Shown: piece after piece, positions 11,295 to 31,585 of the stretch | Position numbering within the stretch: the stretch's first letter is position 1 | Layout of the letters: every line of letters starts with the position of its first letter | Virus record (IMG/VR): IMGVR_UViG_3300009107_000005 | Coordinates: 1 to 38,353 of that record | DNA from: a virus | DNA length: 38,353 nt | Direction: 5' to 3' (one strand) | Notes under the pieces: generated by a model | The model's database searches: none | Told to the model about the DNA's origin: nothing | The model's input: only the letters and a program-made list of their open reading frames with translations | Program-made: the position numbers and the translations under genes

Positions 11295-11295
11295 T

Positions 11296-13128: not shown

Positions 13129-13131
13129 AAA

Positions 13132-13617: not shown

Positions 13618-13629
13618 ATTATTATTTAT
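13615..13629 (-). promoter_or_regulatory. Late-promoter-like 15-mer at the gp25 start
   Basis: The same 15 bases as at gp8, preceded by A (box AATAAATA), ending in the gp25 ATG and overlapping the previous stop codon. The box ends 5 bases before the A of ATG. Confidence 0.55.
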
Positions 13630-14161: not shown

Positions 14162-14169
14162 TATTCTCC

Positions 14170-17100
14170 TTATGATGCAGTCGTAAAAGAACCAAATTCT
14201 TGTGCAGTAGATATAGCACGTCCACCATCATTTGAACCTCCAGAATTTGCTTTAACGTAATAACGTGTTCCTGCACTTAATGCGGATGATGGAGTTGCTA
14301 TAATTTGATTTCCAAATCTTCCTGATTTCGATAGTGTAACCGTAATTGGGGATGCAAAATTCGAATTATTATCTATCAAAATTTCAGCACCAGCACTAGA
14401 AGCAAAGGCCGATATATTCACCGCTTCACTATAATGAAAAATTATTGGACTATTTACTGATGCAGAACTTGTTTTACTATTATTATTTTCTGTGCCTAAA
14501 ATTACTTCTGTCCCATCTGTGTTAAATACTGTTGCATTTATACCTTTAAAATCAGGCGATATTCCTGTTCCTATTCTTGCACTTGAAGACGTATATTCCG
14601 AGGCAGTGTTTTTTGCGCCTTTTGTTTTTGCATCTCTCGTAACTTTTACATAGTAATAATCATTTTGTGATAGTCTTAAACTTGTATTGGCAAGAATTAC
14701 TGGTTTGAATTCGTACTTTGATCCATTCTCAGTAATTGTTGGATTTGGCAACAATGGTATACAATTTGTAAAACTGCTATCTTTTGATAATATAACGGTA
14801 TCTGATGAATTAACTTGATTATCAGTTGAATTTACGATAATAGTATCAGTATTCATAGTTTGACTAAATTTTATTATAACATTCGAATCATGATCAATAC
14901 CTGTTCTGCTTGATGATAATTCCAATAATGTATCAGAAGTATTTCTCATAAACGATGTTACACTCAAGGCAGTGGATTGAGTAGAAAATCCAGTATTAGT
15001 TATTGCCGTCATCGTGCCTTTAACACCTGATGTAACACCTGTCAAAATACCGTCAGTAGTGTCAAATGCGATTGAAGTATTCGAATGTCTAATTCTTAAA
15101 CTTGGATCACTAAAATTTAAAACCACACCAGAGGCGGCTGGCGTTATGGATGCACTTGATGTAGTTATTGTTTCGCCAGATGAGAGTCCCACTAATACTT
15201 CACCTGGTAGAAACTCTTTGACTGTTTCATCTTCGCTTGCTATCTCAGTGTATTCTATCGATGTAAGAGTTCCACTACCAGGAGTATGAGTCCTTAATAT
15301 ACCTTTTGCCAGAGATGTTGTTCCTAATAAAGTTTCATTTAAAGTTACGGCTCCACTATTTGCTCCCACACTTGCGGTTCTTGTTCCAATAACTGTTTCT
15401 CCTGTTGTAAATGATCCAGATACACTTCCAACAGTTAAAGTTTTTGAAGAAGAAACATTATCCTTTACTAGAAAATTTTGATTTGGTGATTCATCTGCAA
15501 CACCTTTTGTAACTTTTACTACATATGCTACATTTGACGAAACATTATCTACAGGACTAAATGTGAATGTATCATTTCTTTCGTTTGTTGTTGAAACGGC
15601 TGGTTGAGCATCCATTTGAATGACTGTGTTAAAATCATCAGCCGAAATTTGTATTGTACCAAAAGGATCTGTATTAGTAGAATTGACATTAACCGTTTCA
15701 ACGTTCATAGATTCATTAAATTGCACAACAAAGTTATCTGTAAAATTCACTGCTACACCAGTAGGTGATGCAGAAATTTCTTCAACATTTGAACTTTCTA
15801 GCACATTTGATCCTAAACTTATTTTTTCTATTATTGGAGGTATGCTATCGACAAAAACAAGTTCTTTACCAGTTAATGGATCATAACTTTTTATACCAGT
15901 CGAAAAAGTGTCAGCGGTGATGTAATTTACATCTGTATTTGTATCACCAAGATCTCTAACATTTGTTGTGACTTTCACTTTATATGACTTACTACGTAAT
16001 AGTGTTTCTGGAACTATTGTAAATAAAGAATTTCCTGTATTTGCTGATATAGATTTGCAATTCACTAAACCAGTTGATGTAGCAAAATTATCATCTGACA
16101 ATTGAATAGTGGCTGCCGTTTTGTCATAACCAGTAGTTGAAGAAGTGCCATTCGCATAAATGAAATGTGAAGCATTTGCCACACATATCGTACTTGTATT
16201 CATAGATTGACTAAAACGAACCTGAAAAGCAGTTGCTTGTAATGCAGGAGTATCGCCTGTCTTTAAATTAATTTTGCCTGTTAAAGGAGTTGCAGGCGAT
16301 CTCGGTTCATTTGCAACTTCATATGTAAATCTAAAAGAATCGATAACAGTTTGTACAGTTGCAGAAATATTATAATCAGTTTCATTACAACCCTCTATTT
16401 TTATTGAGTCACCTATGTTTAACGCATGAATTGAATTCGTAAAAACTGTTGCGGTCGTACCGCTCCTTGTAATTTCAATTACTTCTAAATGTCTTGTTAT
16501 CGCATCATTCGCATTTGGCACAAAATCTGTTACCGTAGGTGCAGATGTGTTAAATGGGTGTGTGTTATGAGTAGGATTTGTGTTTGCACTCACAAACATA
16601 GTGATTGTGCCTTGCTTTAAAATAATATTATTTGCGAAATTATCAGTTGATTTAATAATATTTGATTCTGAACCAGTCACTGGAACATAACTTAGTTGAT
16701 TATTTGTGTCATCAAATCTTATACTCTTCGCAAAATTTTTAGTAGTGGTCGTTGGTAAAAATTGTTGTATTTCTTTATTTAATTCTATATCAACAAAATT
16801 TTTTCTTGGGTTTGAGGTTGCTTTTATTTGTATATTGTTTGTTCTTTCTGTAGAAACAATCTCATCATCAGCAGAAAAATCAACGTAAAAATTTATTCTA
16901 CCAGCAATACCATGTAAATTATTGACACCATCTAATGTTATAGTAGTTGTTCCTACGCTTGATATTGAGTAAGTTCTTTTTGATAATCCACTACCACTCA
17001 CTATATCATATATTGTAATTTTATTATCAGCAAATAATCCGTGAGCAGATGGTGTTGTTATTACGCATGGACTGGCGGCGGTAAATGCAACATTTATGAA

Positions 17101-17817
17101 GTAACAAACTGGATTTAGATTATAGGTTAATATTGAAACCTCATCGTGTTCAAAAACAGTTGCTACTGGTAGATTTCTTCCAGATTTTTTAACAACTTCA
17201 TCTTTTTCAAACTTTAATTCATTATCCGAGGGTAAATTAATGATGTGACCATTAAAAGGTCTAGAACTTAAAATTACACTTCTAGTATTGTCCGTGACAA
17301 AACCTGTACCAACGGTAAACGAGGTTTCGCTACCATCGTTGTCTTGAACATCTTTAGTCACATTAAAAATGTATGTAGAATTACTGGCTAAATTAACTAC
17401 TGGTTCAAAAGAAAATGTAGCGTTTGCATTTGATATAACTGGTTGTGATAACATTTCTACTTCAATAGTAGCATCTTGATCTTTTATCAACGTACCAGGA
17501 GAAGAAGATATAACAAAAGGAGGGCTACTCGTACCTTTTTTTAATCTTAAATTTAAAGAATCGGCATCAGAACCAAGTCCTGGATCACCAACACAAGATA
17601 ACTGCACAGAACCTCTTTTACCTCTTTCGCTTACATCTATGTCTGTATTATTTGTATGAAGAGATATTGTTTCAGAATCCATTAGATCATCAAAAGTAAG
17701 TATAAATGATTTCTCTATAGGTACAAAGATAGTATTATTTGAGAAATTATTTTGATTGATTTCATCAACATCAAAATCACTTGCAGTTGAATCAATTTGT
17801 TCTCTATTAAATGCCAT
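14170..17817 (-). CDS. Large Ig-like (SbsA/Big_5-type) baseplate or tail adhesin
   Basis: 1215 residues. At least five repeats follow the pattern of SbsA-type Ig-like domains: a strand with F(S/N)(Q/E)(S/T)MN, then a long loop, ending in a Y(Y)(V/K)VKVT-x-(D/G)V strand. Clear copies begin near ILTFDDLMDSETI (residue 40), VRFSQSMNTSTI (530), VVQFNESMNVETV (690), IIKFSQTMNTDTI (980) and IIFHYSEAVNISA (1130). Between them lie two HGL-type beta modules (about 239-312 and 446-515) and GxxSGxxxG segments (about 800-900). No signal peptide or membrane segment. Such domains usually serve as surface-exposed scaffolding or carbohydrate contact, so an outward-facing tail part is inferred. It overlaps the preceding gene by one base (TAATG). 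Confidence 0.7.
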   Translation of the reverse strand: MAFNREQIDSTASDFDVDEINQNNFSNNTIFVPIEKSFILTFDDLMDSETISLHTNNTDIDVSERGKRGSVQLSCVGDPGLGSDADSLNLRLKKGTSSPPFVISSSPGTLIKDQDATIEVEMLSQPVISNANATFSFEPVVNLASNSTYIFNVTKDVQDNDGSETSFTVGTGFVTDNTRSVILSSRPFNGHIINLPSDNELKFEKDEVVKKSGRNLPVATVFEHDEVSILTYNLNPVCYFINVAFTAASPCVITTPSAHGLFADNKITIYDIVSGSGLSKRTYSISSVGTTTITLDGVNNLHGIAGRINFYVDFSADDEIVSTERTNNIQIKATSNPRKNFVDIELNKEIQQFLPTTTTKNFAKSIRFDDTNNQLSYVPVTGSESNIIKSTDNFANNIILKQGTITMFVSANTNPTHNTHPFNTSAPTVTDFVPNANDAITRHLEVIEITRSGTTATVFTNSIHALNIGDSIKIEGCNETDYNISATVQTVIDSFRFTYEVANEPRSPATPLTGKINLKTGDTPALQATAFQVRFSQSMNTSTICVANASHFIYANGTSSTTGYDKTAATIQLSDDNFATSTGLVNCKSISANTGNSLFTIVPETLLRSKSYKVKVTTNVRDLGDTNTDVNYITADTFSTGIKSYDPLTGKELVFVDSIPPIIEKISLGSNVLESSNVEEISASPTGVAVNFTDNFVVQFNESMNVETVNVNSTNTDPFGTIQISADDFNTVIQMDAQPAVSTTNERNDTFTFSPVDNVSSNVAYVVKVTKGVADESPNQNFLVKDNVSSSKTLTVGSVSGSFTTGETVIGTRTASVGANSGAVTLNETLLGTTSLAKGILRTHTPGSGTLTSIEYTEIASEDETVKEFLPGEVLVGLSSGETITTSSASITPAASGVVLNFSDPSLRIRHSNTSIAFDTTDGILTGVTSGVKGTMTAITNTGFSTQSTALSVTSFMRNTSDTLLELSSSRTGIDHDSNVIIKFSQTMNTDTIIVNSTDNQVNSSDTVILSKDSSFTNCIPLLPNPTITENGSKYEFKPVILANTSLRLSQNDYYYVKVTRDAKTKGAKNTASEYTSSSARIGTGISPDFKGINATVFNTDGTEVILGTENNNSKTSSASVNSPIIFHYSEAVNISAFASSAGAEILIDNNSNFASPITVTLSKSGRFGNQIIATPSSALSAGTRYYVKANSGGSNDGGRAISTAQEFGSFTTAS

Positions 17818-20800
17818 TATAGTAATCCAATATCAATTATTGTAGTTGGCGATGTTGTAAATCCTAAAGTCATCTCAAACCCCTCTTTGAGTTGTTGATT
17901 ACTTTTATTTAATATGGATTTTTTTATTTTAAGTTTAAAGTTTGTTTTTGATTCTAGTTTATCTTGTGGTTTAATAATAACTGATTTTATAACTTCTATC
18001 TCTTGTTCGTTTACAGTTATAGTTTCCCTAATTGGTTGTACTGAATAATTTAATGGTGTTGAGGTTACAAAATTATCATTTGATAATATTACATTTCCCC
18101 CATCAGCATTTGTCGATCTTGTGGGGATCATTGACCCATAGTTTATATCGACATCAAAAATAAAATCATTTCCTTTTGCATCTTTTATTAATTGTTTTTC
18201 ACCATCAGTCAAAGATTTGCTATCATTTTTGAACGTAATTTTTATTTGGGTGTCTTTTCTAACAAGTTCGGCACCCTCTGCTTGTATAAAAACATTATCA
18301 TTTATAGATCCTGCTTGTTTTATTTCAATCTTATCAACCTCTGGCTGTACTTTTTCAAGTAAAGATTTCACTGATGTATCATCAGTTGTTGTTTTTTCTG
18401 ATTGAGGATTTTCTTTTTCTTCTACTTTCTTCAAACCACTCGTTAATAAAAATTTCTCTAATAGTTTAGTATCGTTTCCTTGTGCATAGAAAACAAACCC
18501 TCCACTATATTTTAAAGAGTCGAGATCTGACCAATTAATCAATTGTTCACCCACGCTTTCAGGGTTTTCTTTTTGTACAAGTTTTAATACTTCTGCTTGA
18601 ACTTCTTCACCATCACCTCCAATTCTATTTACTACGACAGGTTCAAGAGAAAATTCTTTAACCGGTTCAAGATTGACGTTTTTTATTTTTGCACTAGAAA
18701 GACTTCTTTTAAAACCGTTGACGCCATCATTACCAGAAAAACTTGCAAAATACAACCCTGATTTATCCAATCCTGATGCTAAAAATTGAAGCAGATTTTG
18801 TATTTCTTTGTTTAATGTTTTTAAATCTCGTACAAGATCCTCAAAATATTGAATCCATTTGTTTATGTCTTCTAATGAACCAGAAGCCAAATCTTTTGCA
18901 AATTCCAATTTATCTATTATACGATCTAAAACTTTTCCGTATACTGGAAAAATATCTTGTATTCGTGTAAACTTCCAATTTGGAATACTTGATCTTGTGG
19001 CAGTTGTTTTATGTAAAGTCAACGGCACATCAAGAAATGCATTATTAACGACTTTATTCGGTACTATCACATCCTTAGAATTATATGGTTCAATCTCACC
19101 AGACTTCGTAAGTCTACCAAGTTCGATTGTAATTTCATACATACTTTCATATTCAATATCTTTTGAAGAAGAAGATTTTTTTCTAGTTTTAAATAATTGT
19201 GTTTTTATATCTTGTTTTTTAAGTTCTGTCCCATTTATTAAAACCTTTCTGATACATGGTGTTAATCCCATACCAGGAAATAAAGTCCACCCCAATCTGT
19301 CAAAAGGATTTACAGGAATGTTCATTTCAGATACAGATGATGAAACTATAAAATTATGCGTGATTGGAGACCCAATAGTAAGATTTTCTACAAAATTTTC
19401 CATCATAACTTGAAAAGATAATTTACTAATCAAATTTTGATCAGTATAGATATCGGTGACGGTTAAAGGATCATCTTGTGCAGTACCTGTTGAGTTATAT
19501 TTAATAAATTCATCATTAACTGGTAAAACTGTTCTTAAAATATTACTTTCGGTATGCATAGTTGCTTTAATTTTTAAAGCAGGCTGTAATTCAGGAACAT
19601 CAGGATTAGTTGGAGCAAACATAGGAAAATTCAAAGAATCTTTTGCCCCTTGAACACCTTGACCCGTTTTCAAAATACCAAATGAATCTAATTGTTTTCC
19701 ATCTAATGCAATAATCGGAGGGACATTAATTTGTTGCATAGGTGAACTTGTATTATGTTTAATATTTCCTCTGACTTTTCTTACTTTTAATTTATTACTA
19801 ATAACATGTCCATCTTTAACTCGTATCTCTACGTGTCTGACAACTTCTGCGGTGAAATCATTAAATACATGACCCTGTTGAATTAATGTGCCCTCCGCAA
19901 ACATTGGTATTGTCACACCATTATGCGTATTATTTTTAGGAGTAAATATTTTTTCTTCTGTTATTGCGGACAAATCTCTCATCGATGTATTATCTAAGGT
20001 ATAGAATTTTTCTTGTAAAACCGTTGTATCGAGACTAATATTGTTTCTCTTTTTTTCTAGTGCATTTCTTTTTGCTTGAATTTGCTTCACCTTTTCTATT
20101 TTATCATTAAAATTTGATTGTAAATTATTTGCTTCAGCAGTTGCATTGGCTAAATGTCTTCCGTATTCCTGTTGTGTAATTAATTCGGCTCTAACATTTT
20201 CAGATGCCTTTGTTGCTAAGTTTGATAAACGAGCAATCTCTTGTTCTATTGATACTGTATCTGGTGAAGTTAATAATTGTTGTTGTAAATCATTTATTTG
20301 AGTTGAATAGTTGGCCACTTCGCTAAATGCATTTGTGTATCGTTCTCTGGATTTTTTTAAGTTTCCTTTATATTTTTTAATATTTTCAGAATTTGCACCA
20401 AAAAGTAATTCTACTCCTGCTTCATTTTCAGCATCTTGTGCATCAGAGATTTCATTTGCAACATCTACTATTTCACTATCGGCCGCACTTATAGCATTTT
20501 TTGTTTCTAGTAATAAATCAGTCTCTAATCCAGCAATTACTAATGGGTGTCCTAATTCGATATCTGTAATTTTATCATCTTGTAGATCAGGTATGTTTTT
20601 CAAAAAATTCGCAAAAAATTTAAGAAGTGAATTAATCATATCTCTCAAAGCATGATGAGTTGGTAACGCAAAAAAACCTACAAATGCTATATAATCACCG
20701 CTACCAATAGGTCTTCCTGGATCATTAGAGTCATCAAATGAACTACTAACTTCTGAAACAAATTGTGAAGGAGTTAATGTTCTTATCTGAAATGATTCGT

Positions 20801-21548
20801 TTAATGAATTTATAAAACGTTTTGTTGCATTATCACCTTCTTCCCATTCTTTTGGATTTAAATAATTGTAAATTGTATTTAAAGTATTATTAACAAATGT
20901 TTTATCTAAATTTTTTGTCTCAATAGTTCGACCCTCATCGTCTGTTGAGATTGATACCTGCTCAAAAGCCGAAAAACCAAATGGTTGAGTATCTAAAGAT
21001 TCTGCTCCTTGTTGTTGTAACTCATCACTTGCTTCATCCTCATTCCAAGTATTATCATCCGCTACAAGTGCATCTAGAAAAGATTGGTCCGCACCAGCAT
21101 CTAACATTTCCTGATTTGTTACTCCATCACCTAAGACAGTTACGGATTGAAATTGATTTGTTCTAGGATCCCATTTTAAATTGTCAGGCTCAATATCGTT
21201 TAATGCAACAATTAGTGACTGTATGGCCTCTAATGCCTTAGTAGAATCAATGCCACTTTCTACCTGCCCAACTTCCCATGGCCATACAGATAACGTACCA
21301 AATCCAATATTTTTTAAATCTTCAATCGCTTCAATCAATTGATCTATTGCAGGTATTAATATTAATGCTATTGGATCAGCAATTGCCTTTAAATAAATTT
21401 TAGTTAGATTTAAAAATTCAACTAAGGTACCTAGTCCACCAGAAACATCACTTGCAAACGTTGCAATATTTGTTAATACTGCATTTAGCAAAGGATCGTT
21501 TTGATCAAATAATTTTTTCTGGTCAAATAATACAGGTGCTTCAGCCAT
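17817..21548 (-). CDS. Large tail/baseplate structural protein with coiled coil
   Basis: 1243 residues in the hub-to-wedge gene block. N-terminal 120 residues are helical and hydrophobic (LILIPAIDQLIEAIEDL). Residues 140-172 are the acidic peptide module encoded by a 97-bp sequence repeated exactly in the gp27-like gene. Residues about 340-520 are a long predicted coiled coil (SAADSEIVDVANEIS through KVKQIQAKRNALEKKRNN). The middle has beta-rich segments (HVEIRVKDGHVISNKLKVRK), and the last 200 residues look like an Ig-like pair with FKLKIKKSIL and GFEMTLGFTTSPT, similar to the SbsA-type domains of the next gene. No enzyme motif is visible. Its start overlaps the 52-residue ORF by 8 bases. 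Likely a virion protein bridging hub and periphery; function not established. Confidence 0.65.
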   Translation of the reverse strand: MAEAPVLFDQKKLFDQNDPLLNAVLTNIATFASDVSGGLGTLVEFLNLTKIYLKAIADPIALILIPAIDQLIEAIEDLKNIGFGTLSVWPWEVGQVESGIDSTKALEAIQSLIVALNDIEPDNLKWDPRTNQFQSVTVLGDGVTNQEMLDAGADQSFLDALVADDNTWNEDEASDELQQQGAESLDTQPFGFSAFEQVSISTDDEGRTIETKNLDKTFVNNTLNTIYNYLNPKEWEEGDNATKRFINSLNESFQIRTLTPSQFVSEVSSSFDDSNDPGRPIGSGDYIAFVGFFALPTHHALRDMINSLLKFFANFLKNIPDLQDDKITDIELGHPLVIAGLETDLLLETKNAISAADSEIVDVANEISDAQDAENEAGVELLFGANSENIKKYKGNLKKSRERYTNAFSEVANYSTQINDLQQQLLTSPDTVSIEQEIARLSNLATKASENVRAELITQQEYGRHLANATAEANNLQSNFNDKIEKVKQIQAKRNALEKKRNNISLDTTVLQEKFYTLDNTSMRDLSAITEEKIFTPKNNTHNGVTIPMFAEGTLIQQGHVFNDFTAEVVRHVEIRVKDGHVISNKLKVRKVRGNIKHNTSSPMQQINVPPIIALDGKQLDSFGILKTGQGVQGAKDSLNFPMFAPTNPDVPELQPALKIKATMHTESNILRTVLPVNDEFIKYNSTGTAQDDPLTVTDIYTDQNLISKLSFQVMMENFVENLTIGSPITHNFIVSSSVSEMNIPVNPFDRLGWTLFPGMGLTPCIRKVLINGTELKKQDIKTQLFKTRKKSSSSKDIEYESMYEITIELGRLTKSGEIEPYNSKDVIVPNKVVNNAFLDVPLTLHKTTATRSSIPNWKFTRIQDIFPVYGKVLDRIIDKLEFAKDLASGSLEDINKWIQYFEDLVRDLKTLNKEIQNLLQFLASGLDKSGLYFASFSGNDGVNGFKRSLSSAKIKNVNLEPVKEFSLEPVVVNRIGGDGEEVQAEVLKLVQKENPESVGEQLINWSDLDSLKYSGGFVFYAQGNDTKLLEKFLLTSGLKKVEEKENPQSEKTTTDDTSVKSLLEKVQPEVDKIEIKQAGSINDNVFIQAEGAELVRKDTQIKITFKNDSKSLTDGEKQLIKDAKGNDFIFDVDINYGSMIPTRSTNADGGNVILSNDNFVTSTPLNYSVQPIRETITVNEQEIEVIKSVIIKPQDKLESKTNFKLKIKKSILNKSNQQLKEGFEMTLGFTTSPTTIIDIGLL
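21031..21127 (-). repeat. 97-bp perfect direct repeat, copy in the 1243-residue gene
   Basis: Identical base for base to 24766-24862 and in the same reading frame. It encodes GVTNQEMLDAGADQSFLDAL and then VADDNTWNEDEA, residues 140-172. Similarity continues about 10 bases beyond one edge (7 of 10). Confidence 0.95.
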
Positions 21549-21699
21549 TCTTTAACTCATCTCTATTTTGTCTCATTTCTTTTAACTTATTCTCTAAGAA
21601 ATCCAAATATTGGATATTAAAATCTAATGTTTTTTGTAAAACATTTTCTAATTTATGATTTCTAATTTTCTGTTCTTCAAATATTACGTCTTCTGTCAT
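21541..21699 (-). CDS. 52-residue helical protein between gp5 and the 1243-residue gene
   Basis: An intact small frame: ATG at 21699 overlaps the gp5 stop as ATGA, and its TGA (21543-21541) lies 8 bases inside the next gene. Translation is highly charged and heptad-like (EEQKIRNHKLENVLQKTLDF, then YLDFLENKLKEMRQNRDELK), consistent with one long amphipathic helix or a coiled coil. It fills what would otherwise be a 147-base gap in an operon where every other junction is tight, which supports it being real. No ribosome binding site of its own, so coupling to gp5 is likely. Function unknown; it could act as a small chaperone or a clip for a coiled coil such as that of the following protein. Confidence 0.7.
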   Translation of the reverse strand: MTEDVIFEEQKIRNHKLENVLQKTLDFNIQYLDFLENKLKEMRQNRDELKNG

Positions 21700-23804
21700 G
21701 CTAATAATGCCTTTAATTTGACTTGTACTGCCGTTAAAGCAGGTGCGTTTATTGGAGGTCCACTCGGACCAACGCCAGTCGGTACGTTTAATTGCAAAAG
21801 TGCCTGCATCAATTCATCTAATATAGCACCCAATGAACCAATCTTATTTTCTATTGTTATTTTGCCTATTGCACCTACACTTATGGTGGCTAACAAATTT
21901 TCTATCGTTAAACTACCAAGAGTGCTAGAAATGCTTACAGGTCCTAATGTTGACATATCCATTTTTACCTTAGCACTTAACGAATACTTACCTAATGTTG
22001 AAAAATCAAAGCCTAATGCATTCATAGACGATGAAGTAAGTGAACCTACAGGACCAACATTTACATCAAAACCTCCTAATGGATTAATAGAATTGACTTC
22101 CATTTTACCTCCAAGAATATTAACTTGCTTTCCTATGTTAAATTCTCCAGGAAAACCAAACGTGAGTAATCCATTTATAGTTTCTTTTGAACCAAATGTT
22201 GCAGACATTTTAATAGATTTATTCGCATTAATTGTATAATCTCCTGTCACAATATTGTGATTTGAAGAATTCATTTGTATGGCGCCCTCAGATTTATAAT
22301 TCATAGACTTGGATCTCAAATCTATTTGGCCCATATTAAAACCTTTTAAATTATAATTGTCTAATCCAAAAGATTTTTGATCTATAGGTTTACCATCACC
22401 TGATGTAAAAACAACATCAGTACCCTTTAATATCACTCTACCATTACCACCTGCAACAATATTAATATCACCATTTTCAGTAACAATTGATGCATTACCC
22501 GATCCTATTTTGACATTATATGCATTTGTAGAAGTGCTATCATTAAGACTAGGAGATACTGTTTTAGCACTTCCGTTTACGTATAGATCATAAAACCCAT
22601 TTATATTTGTAAATGAATTGCCTAAAGCATGAGTATTAATATTTGAGTCAACCATATCAAACTTTTCACCTACGGTATTATCAACCCTATCACCGTCTTG
22701 TAAAAATTCTAAATATGATGTTGATCGATGCATAAGTCTCATACGTTCTTTATTTGGAGTATCATCCATTTCAAAAAGATGTCCACTTTCAGAATATGTC
22801 ACATGATTAAATGGATATGAAGGCTCACCTAAAGTTCCTGTACTTCCAGGTTGGCTGATTTTTTTGTCAGGGTTTGTAGTCTCAATATTTGTATGTAACG
22901 CAACTCTATAATCTTCTAGTTCTAGATTGATACGATGGGTTCTGAATATAACACTCGTGAATGGATTTTTTTGATCTATAAATTTGTCTTTATTTTTTTG
23001 CTTTGCGGACGCAAGAATATTGGTTGTTGGTAAACTGTATTCTAAAAAACCATTCTCATTAAATGATGTTCTATTTTCATTTGGATGTGCAGAAAAATTA
23101 ATATAAGACCCTAATCTTACATTTTCGGTATTATCAGGAACATATGCAGTTGTGTAGTCATTTGTATTGATAGGTCTTCTCAAACCTTTGATGACAATTT
23201 CTGCTTTTTGTGCTATGTCATCTCTTGATAATTCTAAAAATGATTTATGTTTTGCCCACGAACTTGCACCATGTATTTCATGAAGTTTTGTACCGTCCTT
23301 AATGTTTTGTGAAAACACAGGGAAATGATTTATTATCTTTGTTTTCTCTGGTGATTTCGTTCTTTCAATAAAAAGTGGGGGAAACGGATCTTGTTCTCTC
23401 TGTTCAGGTGTTCTTGGATCAAAAAACCCTCTTTCTGGATTTGACAATCTTTCAGGGACACCATTCAACGTACCAAGTACAACAGGTTCTTGTGCTTCAT
23501 TTGCATCTCTAAAAAATCCAAACACATGTGTACCAGGAACCATACCTGTAGGAGATCGTCCAATACCTGACATAGAAGCAGAGGTTATTGGATTGATCAC
23601 ATCTGCCCACGGTAAATCTTCTGTAGGTATACCAGAGCCAGGAGTTTTATCATCAGTATGCCAACCAATGCATCTAACTTTAACACGACCAAGATATAGT
23701 GGATCGTGACGATCTTCTACAACACCGTAGAACCATACAAAACCATTTTTACCCATAAAAGATTGGGTATCAAATTCTTTAAATGCTTGAGCAAAATTTT
23801 CCAT
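21696..23804 (-). CDS. 5: Baseplate hub/central spike protein gp5, no lysozyme domain
   Basis: 702 residues. The N-terminal OB-fold domain of gp5 is clear at residues 20-130 (GFVWFYGVVEDRHDPLYLGR, VKVRCIGWHTDD, LPWADVINPITSASMSGIG, GTHVFGFFRDANEAQEPVVLG). Downstream, the T4 lysozyme domain is absent: no GIGH-type catalytic stretch is present. From about residue 410 to 640 the chain is repetitive, short beta strands rich in G, N, S (NVKIGSGNASIVTENGDINI, GGNGRVILKGTDVVF), consistent with the triple-stranded beta-helix needle. The C-terminus is a short helix and proline/glycine tail. In T4, gp5 trimers form the membrane-piercing spike bound to gp27. It overlaps the upstream kinase-like gene as TAATG. 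Confidence 0.9.
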   Translation of the reverse strand: MENFAQAFKEFDTQSFMGKNGFVWFYGVVEDRHDPLYLGRVKVRCIGWHTDDKTPGSGIPTEDLPWADVINPITSASMSGIGRSPTGMVPGTHVFGFFRDANEAQEPVVLGTLNGVPERLSNPERGFFDPRTPEQREQDPFPPLFIERTKSPEKTKIINHFPVFSQNIKDGTKLHEIHGASSWAKHKSFLELSRDDIAQKAEIVIKGLRRPINTNDYTTAYVPDNTENVRLGSYINFSAHPNENRTSFNENGFLEYSLPTTNILASAKQKNKDKFIDQKNPFTSVIFRTHRINLELEDYRVALHTNIETTNPDKKISQPGSTGTLGEPSYPFNHVTYSESGHLFEMDDTPNKERMRLMHRSTSYLEFLQDGDRVDNTVGEKFDMVDSNINTHALGNSFTNINGFYDLYVNGSAKTVSPSLNDSTSTNAYNVKIGSGNASIVTENGDINIVAGGNGRVILKGTDVVFTSGDGKPIDQKSFGLDNYNLKGFNMGQIDLRSKSMNYKSEGAIQMNSSNHNIVTGDYTINANKSIKMSATFGSKETINGLLTFGFPGEFNIGKQVNILGGKMEVNSINPLGGFDVNVGPVGSLTSSSMNALGFDFSTLGKYSLSAKVKMDMSTLGPVSISSTLGSLTIENLLATISVGAIGKITIENKIGSLGAILDELMQALLQLNVPTGVGPSGPPINAPALTAVQVKLKALLA

Positions 23805-24739
23805 TAGGCACTAAGTCTCTGTTTTATTCTTCTACCGATACCAAATTTTTCAACATCTTTTGGGTCTCTTGTTGCTTTTGTAGGATCTTTAACTATGATA
23901 CCTTCTTTGTTTCTAAAAAGATCTATAAGTTTTACGTTTCTAGGTATGTTACTTTTCACCCATGTCATTACTTTTTCAAGTGCTTTTTCAGAAGTATCAA
24001 TACGTTGTCCTTCTCGTTTTATTCTAAAATATTCAAAGTCTTGAACATTCTCAATTTCTTTATCTTGTGCAAATGCACTACTCTTAAATTTAACCGTATT
24101 ATTTTTATTATTCAAAACAATATTCACCTGTCCATCAACACCTCTTGGTAAATTGCCTTTAATGACATTATACATAGATGTAGCGGCACCTGTATGCGTA
24201 GCAATCATAATATCATCTGGTACAATTCTATCTCGTTCTTTATTTTGCTTGACCGCAATATGATAATTCGTAAGAACCCATGTAATATGAATATCTCTAG
24301 GTTGATAACCTGCTCTCAATAACATAGGCATTGCTTCATCAATCTCTTCTGTGTCTTTAAATGTTATGTCAAACATAATGTTAGGTAGTCTGTCAGGTCT
24401 TACATCTCTCAAAAGCAATTGAAGACTTCTACCTTTGATACCCATCTTTTTAACTGCCATGTGTAACTTGAAAACATCATCAGGATTTCTAAGATTTAAC
24501 CCTTTAAGTTCAGAATATTTTTTTATCGTTGAGGACAATTTAATAAACAATTTCTTCCATTCATCCACATCACGAACCTTGAAAAGTTCTTTTTGCATAA
24601 ATTTTTCAGAAGCAAATCCTTTACCAGATCCTGCACCTCCAGCAAGAAAAACGATTTGTCCATATTTTTTACCGCCACCATAGACAATGAGTTTTTCTTC
24701 TAATGGTACGGCAGTTTTAAATTGTGTGTAGTTTAACAT
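23804..24739 (-). CDS. P-loop kinase-like ATPase (zeta-toxin/AAA-like) in the hub operon
   Basis: 311 residues. A Walker A motif GGAGSGKG at residues 34-41 follows a hydrophobic strand (QIVFLA), the usual arrangement in small P-loop kinases and zeta-toxin-like proteins. Further features: NIMFDITFKD near residue 120, a candidate Walker B strand, and RAGYQPRDIHITWVLTN near 142, resembling the GY..hhhh strand of zeta-type kinases. The C-terminal 100 residues are basic and lack obvious domain signatures. It has a strong ribosome binding site (AAGGGAG). Similar ATPases appear in baseplate clusters of marine T4-like phages as far as I recall, but the substrate is unknown. It could be a virion-assembly enzyme, an injected effector, or a nucleotide/polynucleotide kinase. 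Confidence 0.65.
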   Translation of the reverse strand: MLNYTQFKTAVPLEEKLIVYGGGKKYGQIVFLAGGAGSGKGFASEKFMQKELFKVRDVDEWKKLFIKLSSTIKKYSELKGLNLRNPDDVFKLHMAVKKMGIKGRSLQLLLRDVRPDRLPNIMFDITFKDTEEIDEAMPMLLRAGYQPRDIHITWVLTNYHIAVKQNKERDRIVPDDIMIATHTGAATSMYNVIKGNLPRGVDGQVNIVLNNKNNTVKFKSSAFAQDKEIENVQDFEYFRIKREGQRIDTSEKALEKVMTWVKSNIPRNVKLIDLFRNKEGIIVKDPTKATRDPKDVEKFGIGRRIKQRLSA

Positions 24740-24752
24740 TTATACTCCCTTA

Positions 24753-26378
24753 TTATTCGTCACCTGCTTCATCCTCATTCCAAGTATTATCATCCGCTAC
24801 AAGTGCATCTAGAAAAGATTGGTCCGCACCAGCATCTAACATTTCCTGATTTGTTACTCCATATAAATCTTCTAAAATTTCTAATTTTTCAGTCAAATTA
24901 TCTTTTACTAATTTCATATCCATATAGTAAGAATCCCCAACAATTTTGTGACTTAATTCCGTAATCAAATAATTTCCAGAATAATATCTATGTTTTTCGT
25001 TTGCAAAATGTGATGACGGCAAATCGATATTTACTATATCACCAACTGTTCTTGTATGATTTCCAGGCACTCTAATAGATAAAACAATATTCTTCATTTG
25101 TCTATTTTTTGAATTGTTTGGGAGTAACCACCTTTCTGTTTGAAAATCAAAATTTATTTCTTGGCCCATATCTTTTGATAAAATCTTTACTTGTTTTCTA
25201 GCATCTCTTTCAAAGTTTGTTGATACATACTTATAACTGGCTTCTGGACTACCATATGCAAAATGTTTTTTAGTAATAATTGGATTTGCTGGCCCAAAAT
25301 TATGTGTAAATTGATTAAATCTTCGTAAATAATCAAAATCATAAAATTTTTGTCTTACACTTGATTTTCTTGTTGCCTTGGTTGATCCAGATGTAGATGC
25401 ATATGCCCCTTCATTATCAATTGCTCCAACTCTCATAGTGATTGGATCATATGTCAATAATCTAGAATTATACATACCACCTACTAAATTTGCCACGACA
25501 TTAAAAGTCGATTCAAATTTGAATGACGTAATGATATTTGACTCCGAAGACAAGTCAAAAAGATCACTTTCTGACATGGCATTTGCTGGCATCAAAATGT
25601 ATTTGTCTATTACAGGATTTTCTTCAAATTGCAATTGCTTTGATCTATTAACATTTGCTAATGTTGATTCCCCTTCATATGTTTCAAGATCTTGTACAGA
25701 TGTTTTTGGTTGCATGAGAGTATCAATCGTTTTGAAATTAAAACCATCCTTGTTTTCATAAAAAAGAAATTTCGCTCCTATAGTTGAACCTCTTCCAGAT
25801 ACAGATTTTTTAGCAACAAGATTAATGCATTCAAAAGGTCTAAACATTCCCATAACCATTTGCATTTGAAAAAGAGTAGAATCACTATTATTTTTTTCGT
25901 ATCCGAATAATGGTTTCTGAAAAGTTACATTTGTTTTTATAAACTCGTGATAAATGTCACTCACTATTTCATATCCAAAATCTTTATATGAACGTGACAC
26001 TTTAAATTTTAAATTAGCAATATATTCTTCCGAAACGAAAAACAATACATAGGCTTGCTTTTTACTCTCATCAATTAATTTCGGAGACATATTATAAATG
26101 ACAAAATGTTTATTTTGAATTGGAACGTTATTCAAATCTTTTGACCCAAATCTAATGTTTATTCTCTCTTGTCCTATAATTGGTACTCGTTCTTCAAAAC
26201 CACCGATATCAAGTATTGTTATTTCACCATGAATAACATTATCATTTAAAGATTCATGTATAGCGAAATCAATTACAACACTAGAATCTAATTCAATTTT
26301 TTCATTTTTATAGTTCGTAATTACAACACCGCTTTTAGATTCGGCAGGTTGTTGATTATCTAATTTTGCATCAGCCAT
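24753..26378 (-). CDS. Baseplate hub protein, gp27-like
   Basis: 541 residues (T4 gp27: 391), immediately before the kinase and gp5. Tube-type hub features: the N-terminal strand set NEKIELDSSVVIDFAIHES and DNVIHGEITILDIGGFEERV, and the late segment RTVGDIVNIDLPSS...YYSGNYLITELSHKIVGDSYYMD, the pattern shared by gp27, Mu gp44 and VgrG hub domains. gp27 trimers cap the tube and hold the gp5 spike. Oddity: residues 505-537, the C-terminal tail up to the stop, are a copy of a peptide found inside the 1243-residue protein and the DNA is identical over 97 bp. The native protein probably ended near LEILED. Start overlaps the gp53 end by 8 bases with no own ribosome binding site. Confidence 0.8.
   Translation of the reverse strand: MADAKLDNQQPAESKSGVVITNYKNEKIELDSSVVIDFAIHESLNDNVIHGEITILDIGGFEERVPIIGQERINIRFGSKDLNNVPIQNKHFVIYNMSPKLIDESKKQAYVLFFVSEEYIANLKFKVSRSYKDFGYEIVSDIYHEFIKTNVTFQKPLFGYEKNNSDSTLFQMQMVMGMFRPFECINLVAKKSVSGRGSTIGAKFLFYENKDGFNFKTIDTLMQPKTSVQDLETYEGESTLANVNRSKQLQFEENPVIDKYILMPANAMSESDLFDLSSESNIITSFKFESTFNVVANLVGGMYNSRLLTYDPITMRVGAIDNEGAYASTSGSTKATRKSSVRQKFYDFDYLRRFNQFTHNFGPANPIITKKHFAYGSPEASYKYVSTNFERDARKQVKILSKDMGQEINFDFQTERWLLPNNSKNRQMKNIVLSIRVPGNHTRTVGDIVNIDLPSSHFANEKHRYYSGNYLITELSHKIVGDSYYMDMKLVKDNLTEKLEILEDLYGVTNQEMLDAGADQSFLDALVADDNTWNEDEAGDE
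24766..24862 (-). repeat. 97-bp perfect direct repeat, copy at the 3' end of the gp27-like gene
   Basis: Second copy, 3.7 kb from the first in the same orientation. Here it forms the C-terminal tail of the hub protein, which stops four codons after the repeat (GDE, stop). Confidence 0.95.
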
Positions 26379-26946
26379 ATATTGTTCTAGATTCCTCTAA
26401 AATTTGTTGAGCGTAAACATCTTCAATTAAAATTATATTTCTTTTTGATTCATTTTCTAAAATTTCATAATCAAAATTACTTATGCTTTTTCGTTCACTT
26501 GCAAGTAAACTATCATAGGTAGTCTTATCCACATGCACGGTCTTTTCCAATATTCTCTCTGTGTCAGTAGTTGCCGCCACTTCTGTTCTCAAAATTTGCT
26601 CATAATGATGAACCGTATTTGATGCAGAAAGTATCGAACCATACTTATTTACTATAAAATTTTGTAATTGTTTTCCAAAAAAAGGCCAGTCATAATATAC
26701 GTCAAAAATTTCATTTGCATATAAAATTAACCACATAAAATCTACCGAACCATAATACATGTGTGCAAGAGTATCAGGCCTCTCACCCTCTTGAACTTGA
26801 TAAGGATAGTAAGATGTGATATTCGATAAAATTTTATCTCTTACAAAATTTCTTCTAAAAATATCTACCGCCAAATATTCAGTAGAAGGTTTTTTTCTAT
26901 CTAAATCATATGTAATTAAAGGTAGATTTGAAAAATACTCTGACAT
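26371..26946 (-). CDS. 53: Baseplate wedge protein gp53
   Basis: 191 residues (T4 gp53: 196). Conserved core: the N-terminal YFSNLPLITYD, DIFRRNFVRDKILSN, then YYPYQVQEGERPDTLAHMYYGSVDFMWLILYANEIFDVYYDW split over residues 60-100, the LysM-like region typical of gp53, followed by FGKQLQNFIVNKYGS. gp53 clamps neighbouring wedges together through gp25 and gp6 at the inner ring of the baseplate. A GAGGG ribosome binding site precedes the ATG, 1 base after the upstream stop. The C-terminal helix (ILENESKRNIILIEDVY..ILEESRTIYG) is also family-like. Confidence 0.93.
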   Translation of the reverse strand: MSEYFSNLPLITYDLDRKKPSTEYLAVDIFRRNFVRDKILSNITSYYPYQVQEGERPDTLAHMYYGSVDFMWLILYANEIFDVYYDWPFFGKQLQNFIVNKYGSILSASNTVHHYEQILRTEVAATTDTERILEKTVHVDKTTYDSLLASERKSISNFDYEILENESKRNIILIEDVYAQQILEESRTIYG

Positions 26947-26947
26947 G

Positions 26948-28048
26948 TTAACCCTCTAAATTTGTAGCAAGATTTCTTGATAAAGCAAAATTTTCTTTGA
27001 ATGTGATATCCATTTTGACATGTTGAGGTGCTCCATTTTTAAAAAACACTTGCTGACCTCCTTCTCCATATGACAATTTTAAATTTAATATTGAAGACTG
27101 TCCTATTTGATGAAGAAACTCATTTTTTGTGCCGTTTGTTTTGTAAAATTTAATAGTGTATACATTTGGGTAATTGAAAAATGCAGACTTCAATAAACTT
27201 GTTTGTGCATCAGATGCAGGTGCTGTTTTAATATATTTTGTACCAGCTAAAGGACCTGCTTTAATCGTTTTCAATTGTTCAATTTGATATTTTTCAGTCT
27301 TTTTTTTATTTTCAACATCTGGTTTATGATAATCAGGTAACATGCCTGCTTTCAATTTTGTTATGATTTTTAAAATGTTTTTCGATTCATCAGAATTTCT
27401 TGGATAAAAATCAAATGAGAATGCATGTTGTCTTCTTTCTTTTACACCTGCAAAAACTAATGTAGAATATGGATTTCCAGTCTTTCTCATAGATAATGAT
27501 GCCACTGATGCAGTCTTATCTTTCGATAATAATAGTCCACCAACCGCATCACCAATGTTAAATGCCATTCGTGTACTCATATCTTGTTCAATATATCTAT
27601 TCACATTTGGTGATAATTCAGAACCAACCGTAGTTGCTATTTTTTTATAAAAATCAAATGATTTTGAAATTTGATTTCTATCAGAATGTACAATGTTAGG
27701 TAATTGTGCCTGTAATCGATTTAACACATCTGATGATTCTGAATTTAGTAATGCACCAAAAAATCCAAAGTCTACTTTTTCATGACTTGCATTATATTGT
27801 GTTTTTAAAGAACCTTTTGGTAAATACAAAGCAAACGCATTACGTGACTCATATGGTGCAGTAGTTGATATTTGTTCTGAAAAACGAGTTAAGGCATCTC
27901 TGTTTTTTGTATTTGTGTTTTTATATTGGTACTCAGTAATCATCATAAAATGTCCAACTTCATCACTAGCAACATTTTCAGGAAATTTTTCAATTGCAGT
28001 AACTCCTAGACTTCGTTTTATATTATTTAATTTTTCCTGCGGTGACAT
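26948..28048 (-). CDS. 48: Tail tube cap/baseplate protein gp48-like
   Basis: 366 residues (T4 gp48: 364), directly upstream of gp53 as in marine T4-like phages. The second half has the tube-like fold signature HAFSFDFYPRNSDESKNILK, a strand VYTIKFYKTN, then ILNLKLSYGEGG and HVKMDITFKE, which pair up with segments in the preceding gene, so the two are paralogues. gp48 sits on the hub and nucleates the tail tube. A good ribosome binding site (AGGAG) precedes the ATG, which overlaps the upstream stop as TAATG. The family call rests on length, position and tube-type strand pattern; which paralogue is gp48 sensu stricto is not certain. Confidence 0.65.
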   Translation of the reverse strand: MSPQEKLNNIKRSLGVTAIEKFPENVASDEVGHFMMITEYQYKNTNTKNRDALTRFSEQISTTAPYESRNAFALYLPKGSLKTQYNASHEKVDFGFFGALLNSESSDVLNRLQAQLPNIVHSDRNQISKSFDFYKKIATTVGSELSPNVNRYIEQDMSTRMAFNIGDAVGGLLLSKDKTASVASLSMRKTGNPYSTLVFAGVKERRQHAFSFDFYPRNSDESKNILKIITKLKAGMLPDYHKPDVENKKKTEKYQIEQLKTIKAGPLAGTKYIKTAPASDAQTSLLKSAFFNYPNVYTIKFYKTNGTKNEFLHQIGQSSILNLKLSYGEGGQQVFFKNGAPQHVKMDITFKENFALSRNLATNLEG

Positions 28049-29004
28049 TAAAATTTCTCCTGTAAAATTTGATACCTATCATTTTCTTTTCTTACATTAT
28101 CTCTGGTATAAATTTTAGATTCTGTAAATGTCATGTTTATAACTGTACTGACTGGTGATGCATCTTTGTGAAATGCGGGTGCTCCTTCAGTTTCATAATC
28201 AACTGAGAAACTGGTCATGGCGGCATCATTAATGCTTGGTAAATAGCGAGAACCATAGAGTTGTCCATCTTTTACTCCAAAATCACTTCTTTCGGAATCA
28301 CTTCTTGATGTAAAGAAATCTACATAAAACCTTCTTGGTAATGTTTGCAATCCTGTTTGTTGTTTGTACAAAAATTCTCCATCTTCATCATATTGATCTA
28401 TTACCTCGTCTTCGGGCAACATAGAATTTCTAAAAAATTTAATAATTTGTGTAAGATTTTGCGTGTCTGTTGAATTTCTTGGATGACACCTAAAAGTAAA
28501 ATTAAAAGTTTTGAATCCTATACTCTTAAATACACCTGTAATGTATGGATTTACTGCATTATTTGTAGCAGATGTGACAATCTGTCCAGCGACAGAGGCT
28601 TGTCCATCTCCTGTACTGATTCCAGGTATAAATTCTACTGCTTTTTTTGCAACAACTTGTCCAAGTAGTCCTGTATTAAATGATCCGAGACCACTCATAA
28701 TTGATTTTTTTATATTTTCTAAACTGACTTCCGTTGCAATACTTCCCCCAACTCCTACCGCAGTAGCACCTAAAGGTCCTAAATTGGCATCTGTATATTC
28801 CACTTTATAATCATCAACAATATCTAAAGGCATAGGTAATGCAATTGTACCCACCAACGTTTGTTTTCCTCCTTTTTTTATATCTTTGACCAATATATAA
28901 GTGAAGTGCTTTTCTTCGTCAGAACCACCTAATGTTGAGGGAAATGCAAAATCATTTTTTCCCTGACTTTTTAATGCTTGAATTTTTTCTACTGGGTTAG
29001 ACAT
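28048..29004 (-). CDS. Second tail tube cap-like baseplate protein (gp48/gp54 paralogue)
   Basis: 318 residues from the ATG at 29004, chosen because AGGAG lies 7 bases upstream; an in-frame ATG at 29022 lacks one. Residues about 60-160 include a glycine/alanine-rich stretch (GPLGATAVGVGGSIATE, FIPGISTGDGQASVAGQ), followed by the tube-type region FKTFNFTFRCHPRNSTDTQN, IIKFFRNSMLPED, PRRFYVDFF and MTSFSVDYE..STVINMTFTE. The FxFxFxPRNS and II..(x)MLP pattern is shared with the next gene, so an ancient duplication is likely. The length is close to T4 gp54 (320), but the motif pattern is closer to gp48. It is the first gene of the 29-kb baseplate operon. Confidence 0.6.
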   Translation of the reverse strand: MSNPVEKIQALKSQGKNDFAFPSTLGGSDEEKHFTYILVKDIKKGGKQTLVGTIALPMPLDIVDDYKVEYTDANLGPLGATAVGVGGSIATEVSLENIKKSIMSGLGSFNTGLLGQVVAKKAVEFIPGISTGDGQASVAGQIVTSATNNAVNPYITGVFKSIGFKTFNFTFRCHPRNSTDTQNLTQIIKFFRNSMLPEDEVIDQYDEDGEFLYKQQTGLQTLPRRFYVDFFTSRSDSERSDFGVKDGQLYGSRYLPSINDAAMTSFSVDYETEGAPAFHKDASPVSTVINMTFTESKIYTRDNVRKENDRYQILQEKF

Positions 29005-29032
29005 TATTCTCCTGATATACATAATATTTAGT
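29005..29032. promoter_or_regulatory. 28-base divergent intergenic region between the baseplate operon and gp4
   Basis: The two start codons (29004 minus, 29033 plus) are only 28 bases apart. On the minus strand this space holds ACTAAATA (29028-29035 region), matching 6 of 8 positions of the T4-type late box TATAAATA including the TAAATA core, then 14 bases with AGGAG before the ATG. On the plus strand there is neither a Shine-Dalgarno nor a clear late box before gp4, so its promoter probably lies inside the minus-strand gene or the message is leaderless. Assignment of the minus-strand promoter is inference. Confidence 0.35.
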
Positions 29033-29473
29033 ATGTCTTACAAAGGTCGGTACAAAGTTAAAAATCTTAATAAATATAAAGGTGATCCTACAAGTGTAAC
29101 ATATCGTTCATTATGGGAACGTAAGTTTATGTTATACTGTGATGACAATCCAAGCATTCTAAAATGGTCTAGTGAAGAAATTGTTATACCATATCGTTCA
29201 CCTATAGATAAAAAAGTACATAGGTATTTTCCAGACTTTTGGATTCAAGTATTAAATAACAAGGGTATTAAAGAAGGTATTCTAATAGAAGTTAAACCTA
29301 AAGCACAAACGACCGCCCCTAAAAAGAAGTCACGCATCACAAAAAAATATTTACGAGAAGTTTACACATACGGTGTGAATGAAGCAAAGTGGAAAGCCGC
29401 AACTGAATATTGTAAAGATAGAGGTTGGAAGTTTCAGATTTTGACTGAGGACCACATCTTTGGTAATAAATAA
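29033..29473 (+). CDS. 4: Head completion protein gp4 (TnsA-like nuclease fold)
   Basis: 146 residues (T4 gp4: 150). The sequence has the head-completion family opening (YKGRYKVKNLNKYKGDPTSV, then TYRSLWERKFMLYCD) and a PD-(D/E)xK-like set: E in LWERKF (residue 29), D in RYFPDFWIQ (about 61), and E-x-K in ILIEVKPK (about 79-81). The C-terminal NEAKWKAATEYCKDRGWKFQILTE is the typical last helix-strand of TnsA N-terminal-like folds. gp4 acts with gp2 to finish DNA-filled heads before tail joining. No ribosome binding site is visible at the ATG. First of the plus-strand genes. Confidence 0.88.
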   Translation: MSYKGRYKVKNLNKYKGDPTSVTYRSLWERKFMLYCDDNPSILKWSSEEIVIPYRSPIDKKVHRYFPDFWIQVLNNKGIKEGILIEVKPKAQTTAPKKKSRITKKYLREVYTYGVNEAKWKAATEYCKDRGWKFQILTEDHIFGNK

Positions 29474-29480
29474 TAATATG
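29466..29480 (+). promoter_or_regulatory. Late-promoter-like 15-mer at the gp2-like start
   Basis: Third identical copy, on the plus strand, ending in the ATG at 29478 and overlapping the gp4 stop. Box AATAAATA with 5 bases to the ATG, again no Shine-Dalgarno. Confidence 0.55.
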
Positions 29481-30062
29481 GCTGAAAGAGAAAAATCGTT
29501 TCTTGAAAAACTCAAGGATGCGTTAACTAAAAGTCAAGGCAGAGTAAAAACAAGGAATGCAAGAGATTGGTTTCAAAGAAAAGCCAGGGCATTAAAATCA
29601 GAATTAAGAAGTAAGTTCACACAAGTTGATACTGCTGATGAATTCTATCAAAAATCTAAAAAGACAAGTAAACGTAATATTGGACCTGGTTCAATGTTTG
29701 CATATTTTTATGATCCAAAATATAAAAAAGAATTAAAATACTATGATAGATTCCCTCTTGTTCTTGTATTTGATTTTAAGCCAAATGGTTTCATTGGTTG
29801 TAATATGCACTATCTACCACCTCTCTTGAGAGCAAAATTGATGGACGAAATCGACAAAGCAAAAGGTATAAATTGGAAAGCATTGTCAAGAATAAAAGAA
29901 GTGAAACCAACAGTCAAAAGATATTTGTACAAACATATAAGTTCTAAGGTCGTTGAGATTGCAGATGATGAAAGAGAAATAGCATTGTTTCTACCAACAG
30001 AACGTTTTAAGAAAGAAAGCAAACTCGTAGTTTGGGGAGATAGTAGGAGCATGATCAAATGA
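29478..30062 (+). CDS. Virion/head protein, candidate gp2-like DNA end protector
   Basis: 194 residues from the ATG at 29478; a more upstream in-frame ATG lies inside the gp4 coding end and would disturb the conserved 15-mer that precedes this start. The product is very basic (KSQGRVKTRNARDWFQRKAR, KSKKTSKRNIGPGSM) followed by FAYFYDPKYKKELKYYDRFP and LVLVFDFKPNGFIGCNMHYL, PPLLRAKLMD. T4 places gene 2 next to gene 4 and the basic nature suits DNA binding, so gp2 is a reasonable guess, but T4 gp2 is longer (about 270) and I cannot align them. The end overlaps the next gene by ATGA. Alternatively a neck or connector accessory protein. Confidence 0.5.
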   Translation: MAEREKSFLEKLKDALTKSQGRVKTRNARDWFQRKARALKSELRSKFTQVDTADEFYQKSKKTSKRNIGPGSMFAYFYDPKYKKELKYYDRFPLVLVFDFKPNGFIGCNMHYLPPLLRAKLMDEIDKAKGINWKALSRIKEVKPTVKRYLYKHISSKVVEIADDEREIALFLPTERFKKESKLVVWGDSRSMIK

Positions 30063-30628
30063 CAGATATAGGAAAATTAACAAACCTTACAAATTTTAAT
30101 CCTGTACCAGTAAATAGGTACATAGCAAAAGTATACTGTCCTATCGTTTCAAGTATTAATACGCAAACTCTGGCTATGACGGTAGAAAGTGCAGAACTTC
30201 CAGGCAAAACAATCACTACGAGTGAATCAAGATTATATGGACCTGTAAGAAAAATACCTTATAATCTAGGTTTTATAGATACGACATTTACGTTTATGTG
30301 TTCAGATGCTTATATAGTAGAAAAAAGATTTTTTGATAAATGGGCAGATTATATTATTAATCCTGATACTTTTGATGTAGAGTATCATGATAGTTTAGTA
30401 GGAAATATCAATCTACAATTAATGGATAATCATAATGAAGTAATGTACGAGGTAGACTACATAGACGTTTTTCCTATCAACGTAAGTGCAATGAACTTAG
30501 GATTTGGTCAGATGAATGACTATGCAAAATTTTCTGTTACATTTTCTTATAGAAAATGGAAGGCAAAAGATATTGAATTTAATACCCCTTCTCAGCAATC
30601 ATTAAATCCTGCTGATAGATTAGGGTAA
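30059..30628 (+). CDS. Tail tube-fold protein (gp19 or gp54-like)
   Basis: 189 residues. The layout follows phage tube proteins: an N-terminal strand block (VNRYIAKVYCPIVSSINTQT), the ESAELPGKTITTSE turn (as in VxxxxLPG of tube monomers), DTTFTFMCSDAYIVEKRFFDKW with WADYIINP, then VEYHDSLVGNINLQL, YIDVFPINVSAMNLGFGQ and FSVTFSYRKWKA. The FPxxVxxxxLxxxxxxxxxxFxVTFxYxxW ending is shared by T4 gp19 and gp54. Because gp19 normally sits beside the sheath gene, which is not in this window, this copy may be the tube initiator gp54 or a second tube protein. It directly precedes the gp26 chaperone and tape measure, the standard tube-chaperone-tape order. Ribosome binding site GGAG, start overlaps ATGA. 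Confidence 0.72.
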   Translation: MTDIGKLTNLTNFNPVPVNRYIAKVYCPIVSSINTQTLAMTVESAELPGKTITTSESRLYGPVRKIPYNLGFIDTTFTFMCSDAYIVEKRFFDKWADYIINPDTFDVEYHDSLVGNINLQLMDNHNEVMYEVDYIDVFPINVSAMNLGFGQMNDYAKFSVTFSYRKWKAKDIEFNTPSQQSLNPADRLG

Positions 30629-30638
30629 TTAATAATTT

Positions 30639-30650
30639 GTGACACAGGCT
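30639..30650 (+). repeat. Leader arm of a 12-nt inverted repeat flanking gp26
   Basis: GTGACACAGGCT, 5 bases before the AAGGAG of gp26. It is the exact reverse complement of 31399-31410, which begins at the last base of the gp26 stop codon. The arm can extend by a G-U and two A-U pairs on its outer side (30636-30638 with 31411-31413). It is noticeably more GC-rich than its surroundings. Confidence 0.8.
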
Positions 30651-30654
30651 AACA

Positions 30655-30660
30655 AGGAGA
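30655..30660 (+). promoter_or_regulatory. Shine-Dalgarno of gp26
   Basis: AGGAGA (with the preceding A, AAGGAGA) ends 4 bases before the ATG at 30665. It lies just 3' of the long-range complementary arm, so pairing of that arm could affect ribosome loading. Confidence 0.8.
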
Positions 30661-30664
30661 TATT

Positions 30665-31399: not shown

Positions 31400-31410
31400 G
31401 CCTGTGTCAC
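31399..31410 (+). repeat. Downstream arm of the 12-nt inverted repeat flanking gp26
   Basis: AGCCTGTGTCAC, exact reverse complement of 30639-30650. It overlaps the last base of the gp26 UAA codon and forms most of the loop of the local 11-bp hairpin at 31380-31422. Confidence 0.8.
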
Positions 31411-31431
31411 GAAAATCTTCAAAATCACTAT

Positions 31432-31584
31432 ATGACAAATTTTAACTTGATGCAACACCACAAATATAGTTTGACTGAATTAGACAATATGATACCATTT
31501 GAAAGAGAAATTTATGTACAATTATTGATACAACATATTAAAGAAGAAAACGAAAGGTTGAGAGACCAACAAAACCAGAGATAA
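31432..31584 (+). CDS. 50-codon tail chaperone extension (T-like), probably expressed as -1 frameshift fusion to gp26
   Basis: A short frame between gp26 and the tape measure. Its product reads KYSLTELDNMIPFEREIYVQ then LLIQHIKEENERLRDQQ, the same kind of short 'aromatic, LxEL, (P)FxRxIYxxLL' peptide seen in the T part of tail chaperones. The ATG at 31432 has no Shine-Dalgarno (AAAATCACTAT precedes it), while the frame is open upstream to the slippery site inside gp26 in the -1 register. I therefore regard the fused product (gp26 residues 1-243 plus 63 more) as the likely form. It ends 1 base before the tape measure ATG. Independent translation by reinitiation after gp26 remains possible. Confidence 0.75.
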   Translation: MTNFNLMQHHKYSLTELDNMIPFEREIYVQLLIQHIKEENERLRDQQNQR

Positions 31585-31585
31585 A

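Follow-up and report, generated by a model that had tools for sequence, protein, structure and literature searches.

Genomic setting of the repeat

The DNA analysed here, which we refer to as the window, is a 38,353-bp fragment of a marine T4-like phage held as an IMG/VR virus record. Its PHROG families include baseplate wedge, hub, tail tube cap, head closure, DNA end protector and tail tube proteins, and gp32 and gp59 are recognised by Pfam. The names gp6, gp7, gp8, gp25, gp53 and gp48/gp54 are ones we take from the PHROG families and from the gene order of T4. PHROG 230 (baseplate tail tube cap) is matched by two adjacent genes (26948-28048 and 28048-29022), whose hits cover overlapping stretches of the profile; the two presumably constitute the gp48/gp54 pair.

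Four genes on the minus strand are of concern here. A 1243-aa protein of unknown family is encoded at 17817-21548, between gp5 and gp25. It is accompanied by a gp5-like hub protein with an OB domain (21696-23804; Gp5_OB, E=2.4e-27; PHROG 430), a 311-aa P-loop kinase-like protein (23804-24739; weak Zeta_toxin match; PHROG 5268) and a 541-aa gp27-like baseplate hub protein (24753-26378; PHROG 350, E=2.1e-62). The 1243-aa gene and the hub gene each contain one copy of a direct repeat, and the gp5-like and kinase genes lie between the two copies. The exact repeat comprises 98 identical bp (21030-21127 and 24765-24862), bounded by a mismatch at each end. A direct-repeat search of the whole window extends the match to 113 nt at 96% identity (21015-21127 and 24750-24862), and an alternative alignment gives 106 nt at 98%. 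Strand (minus) and reading frame are the same for the two copies. Chance can be excluded as the origin of the pair, since the whole 38,353-bp window holds no other exact repeat of at least 18 bp. The initial annotation had described an identical, in-frame sequence of 97 bp, internal in one protein and C-terminal in the other; identity, frame and placement hold, and the length is corrected to 98 bp. A diverged tandem repeat lies elsewhere, within a 714-aa ORF at 31586-33730 (31636-31756 and 31840-31960; 121 nt, 79% identity, spacing 204).

The shared peptide, GVTNQEMLDAGADQSFLDALVADDNTWNEDEA, has 32 residues, nine of them acidic and none basic when counted by eye. It occupies residues 142-173 of the 1243-aa ORF (21030-21125) and residues 507-538 of the hub (24765-24860), which ends three residues further on.

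Integrity of the assembly at the repeat

A pair of identical segments naturally raises the suspicion of an assembly artefact: a false join at the repeat, as already voiced in the initial annotation, or a spurious copy. No record other than the window joins the two copies in a single contig, and the kinase gene that separates them is where contigs from several samples break off. Each copy nevertheless recurs with both of its flanks in a second assembly, which makes a misjoin at the repeat very unlikely: the hub copy in L003 (100% identity over 8,010 bp, window 24132-32141) and the inserted copy in L082 (99.993% over 14,431 bp, window 9820-24250), two contigs that derive from different IMG samples. 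Both genes are moreover open and colinear with those of relatives across the repeat, continuous at both sites, and a misjoin would have swapped the flanks. The contig ends themselves fall at 24096-24259, away from the repeat.

Eight contigs (L003, L101, L005, L082, L105, L106, L084 and L107) end in this part of the kinase gene, and the window's own path between the copies crosses it. In overlapping blocks of the region no difference separates the window from L101, L105 and L106 (100% identity) despite their different flanks, which suggests that the contig ends are probably due to an assembly tangle at the shared stretch. Contigs fetched under several identifiers were counted once throughout (L083/L087/L004/L097; L085/L088/L007/L092/L098; L082/L086/L093/L102; L084/L108/L109; L003/L091/L100).

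The hub protein and its C-terminal tail

The neighbourhood of the hub gene is T4-like, with the adjoining gp53 as a baseplate wedge gene (PHROG 232) upstream and the gp5-like gene (PHROG 430) downstream. The best solved match of the predicted hub structure is T4 gp27 (Foldseek E 2.0e-13, Z 23.5), so that the earlier assignment of the 541-aa protein as a gp27-like hub is borne out at the level of the predicted fold. The superposition aligns 329 residues at an rmsd of 4.4 Å and 11% identity over model residues 5-497; the model has a mean pLDDT of 55.6, and its poorly modelled part is mostly residues 226-430, where the fold is weakly tested. Beyond the aligned gp27 fold the protein continues into an acidic C-terminal extension of about 44 residues (498-541), which contains the repeated unit and is modelled with two short helices (510-515 and 520-527) at low confidence (pLDDT < 50).

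This tail is present in the hubs of all six other contigs with at least 61% hub identity to the window (L003, 100%; L004, 95%; L007, 96%; L005, L006 and L008, 61%), its sequence in the 61% hubs being GATEQELLDSGADQSFIDALQEDTNTW-EDEIGDE. The comparison of gp27-like C termini that the initial annotation had proposed thus identifies the hub as the original site of the peptide. A four-row alignment of the tail has 23 invariant columns. Between the window and L005, pN amounts to 0.173 over 31 codons of the tail, compared with 0.255 over 484 codons of the hub body and 0.333 over 10 codons of the linker preceding the tail. The lower value in the tail than in the body indicates that the tail, though short, is under a constraint similar to that on the hub body. 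Since it has been kept under such constraint in hubs down to 61% identity, the tail probably has some role in the hub.

More distant hubs lack the tail. We read 37 C termini, picked from 79 hub homologues plus two named phages with apparent near-duplicate loci omitted; 33 were without the tail and four carried it. Five further loci with the kinase were read as well; in two of these, L103 and L104, no hub match lies beside it. The hub of L099 (56% identity) lacks the GADQSF/helical part and has NDNTWT as its end; the L096 and L101 hubs (39%) finish quite differently. In three hubs that lack the tail peptide (L099, L009 and L013) a TW motif is nevertheless found close to the C terminus (NDNTWT in L099, and NPTWTAAAGN and SPTWQNVVGG), and the window tail likewise ends near TW (NTWNEDE); TW is possibly a separate short conserved motif of the hub end.

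The peptide gave no match among 50,697 phage records and no confirmed match in the genome contigs database, and in IMG/VR it was found only at hub C termini and in the one insertion in the 1243-aa protein. A search for it in other phage proteins, suggested at the outset, thus gave no sign that independent lineages carry it in at least two protein families. To judge from these comparisons, the tail is a lineage-specific hub extension that predates the copying event, and the peptide appears undescribed but narrow in distribution.

The recipient gene and its insertion

The 1243-aa protein is presumably structural, to judge from its position in the baseplate operon. Profile searches placed it in no PHROG at 1e-3 and in no Pfam family above cut-off (Big_5 appears sub-threshold near the C terminus), and tblastn against the 50,697 phage records, which are those of named phages, gave no match. 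A sequence search against solved structures with this protein and the hub gave nothing better than E 0.28.

Homologues of the 1243-aa protein in all seven other contigs are without the insertion. In five of them the alignment is otherwise straight and precisely the 32 residues are missing (L083, 86% identity; L085, 85%; L084, whose homologue appears again as L108, 64%; L107, 61%; L008, 40%); a motif scan of the 32% homologues in L105 and L106 found no trace of the peptide. The filled site occurs only in the window and in L082, the near-identical contig from a different IMG sample. Pattern searches of IMG/VR returned three contigs for a degenerate empty site and one for the filled left junction, counts that possibly omit the window's own record. 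When the proteins of the window are compared with relatives of at least 85% identity, the 32-codon unit is their sole insertion of at least 20 aa.

The unit follows residue 141, and the sequence near the site varies in length among relatives; the site is thus probably a flexible, length-variable linker. The term linker derives from this length variation, because the AlphaFold model of the N-terminal part (pLDDT 38.1, built from 5 sequences) is unusable.

In the converse comparison, the relatives of at least 85% identity hold one insertion of at least 20 aa with respect to the window. It consists of 47 proline-rich residues in the L085 homologue of the neighbouring ORF at 14170-17817 (1215 aa, Big_5), at window residue 327. 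A general copying of modules into linkers, which we considered, was set aside, as this was the only further insertion of that size found.

Direction, junctions and age of the copy

Both the donor and the empty recipient site are found in relatives. Since their hubs carry the tail and their 1243-aa genes have an empty site, the hub copy is the original and the comparison points to copying from the hub tail into the 1243-aa gene. This distribution also speaks against the possibility, mentioned in the initial annotation, that the tail is the ancestral end of both proteins, as relatives have it in hubs and in none of the seven 1243-aa homologues.

The inserted unit measures exactly 96 nt, or 32 codons. 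At the left junction the recipient reads ...TTAGGTGAT and the donor ...TTATAT, with 2 bp (AT) in common. The right junction is imperfect (recipient AGTGATGAG..., donor GGTGACGAA...), with 6 of the first 8 bases in common. The outgroup L084 reads GAT AGT GAT at the empty site, so that the right-hand AGT GAT is most likely the recipient's own.

The two copies in the window differ at 0 of 98 positions. The hub unit of the window differs from that of L004 or L007 at 7 of 96 nt, all synonymous, the same 32 residues being encoded. Copying must accordingly be well younger than the split from these 95-96% relatives. Independent support for an origin in the window's own hub comes from the sequence of the insert, which is identical to that hub but differs from the hubs found in relatives. 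The recent duplication that had been suggested from the identity of the copies is therefore supported, the insertion being absent from all relatives found.

The same annotation offered ongoing gene conversion as an alternative, by which an old duplication would have been held identical. Gene conversion could indeed also yield zero differences in 98 bp, but it is not needed given recent copying. For the old duplication itself, absence of the segment from the 1243-aa gene in all seven other contigs, including those at 85-86% identity, would require several precise losses, and we regard this scenario as highly improbable. Zero change in the new copy would by itself also be given by a selected function, by gene conversion or by youth.

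A possible docking tag, the kinase and the loop-out

It had also been proposed that the peptide is a portable docking tag: the hub tail would bind a partner, perhaps a baseplate, chaperone or host component, and selection would have favoured its move into the 1243-aa protein, with the partner then common to both. The conservation of the tail in hubs, with a lower pN than the body and its invariant columns, is in keeping with such a reading, as are the two short helices of the low-confidence model and the retention of all 32 residues in the new copy. On the other hand, no relative has the peptide in a second protein, the 56% hub of L099 does without the helical part, and in so young a copy selection would not yet be visible. 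Furthermore, in L096 a hub with another tail stands beside a kinase and gp5 start that are 99.9% identical in DNA to those of the window; kinase and gp5 are thus unlikely to require the tail, as L096 pairs them with a different one. The docking tag is not borne out by these comparisons and we consider it improbable. That the 1243-aa protein of this young lineage has been rewired to bind, or to compete for, the hub's partner via the copied tail seems similarly doubtful. If the new copy did bind that partner, the spread of a motif between structural proteins would have been caught happening.

The kinase as an obligate partner of the tail was rejected, its protein being 100% identical in L096 beside the different hub tail. 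L096 (1-7044) is an apparent recombinant: its hub side resembles that of L101 (39% to the window hub), and at the kinase start codon (24739) it switches to sequence with 99.9% identity to the window, which continues into gp5 (22696). The kinase thus appears to be exchanged between phages more readily than the hub. L096 could itself be a chimera; the switch falls at the kinase start codon and not inside a long visibly shared stretch. In L005, L006 and L008 the kinase (23804-24739) is 81-84% conserved, compared with about 61% for the hub and gp5, and distant relatives of the kinase occur in RB43-like phages.

Recombination between the copies, which the initial annotation foresaw as a loss of 3.7 kb, is possible in principle and would delete the kinase and gp5. 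A pattern search for the corresponding junction, in which the left flank of the hub copy and the right flank of the recipient copy would stand 85-105 bases apart, found no match in IMG/VR, a search that rare or lethal products would escape.

A recent in-frame copying event and its known counterparts

Taken together, these observations are very probably explained by the recent copying of a 96-bp segment from the 3' end of the hub gene into the neighbouring 1243-aa gene, where it is tolerated as an in-frame linker insert. The segment lies after residue 141, in frame and in the same orientation as the donor. We propose that illegitimate recombination or template switching may have copied it as the phage replicated, a route for which the junctions offer only slight homology (2 bp at the left one, an imperfect 6/8 at the right one). 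The insertion would persist owing to its frame and the tolerance of the linker, and the copy in the 1243-aa protein probably has no selected role yet, a neutrality that we infer. An in-frame partial duplication between neighbouring genes of a baseplate operon is thus real and recent, and belongs to an ordinary, known kind of process. What the phage displays, real and tidy, looks like a recombination accident and not like a new system. Donor, recipient and empty site can all be pointed to, which makes it a clear natural illustration of the movement of short in-frame pieces between T4-like virion genes.

Literature searches on intragenomic duplication in phages and on a shared peptide motif returned nothing, and one on partial gene duplication and template switching returned nothing apparently relevant. 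With regard to the hub itself, the closest known counterpart is T4 gp27 (PDB 1K28, 2Z6B), which it resembles in the fold of residues 5-497 and in the position of its gene beside gp53 and near gp5, and from which it differs by the acidic extension of about 44 residues and by the low identity (11%) of the aligned part. Other members of PHROG 350, from T4-like cyanophages, Caulobacter phage Cr30 and Methylophilales phage Melnitz, share a homologous hub body, at 21-26% identity among the rows listed; the hubs of Melnitz-3 and Cr30, unlike that of the window, are without the tail peptide.

As for the process, recombination at homologies of 2-10 bp reportedly gives rise to amplifications and deletions in T4 (PMC9391042). 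The likeness is that in each case a T4-like genome has duplicated some of its DNA with little homology at the sites. In the T4 work selected genes are amplified in tandem as whole loci, whereas here a single 96-bp piece has come to lie 3.7 kb away, inside another gene and in nature.
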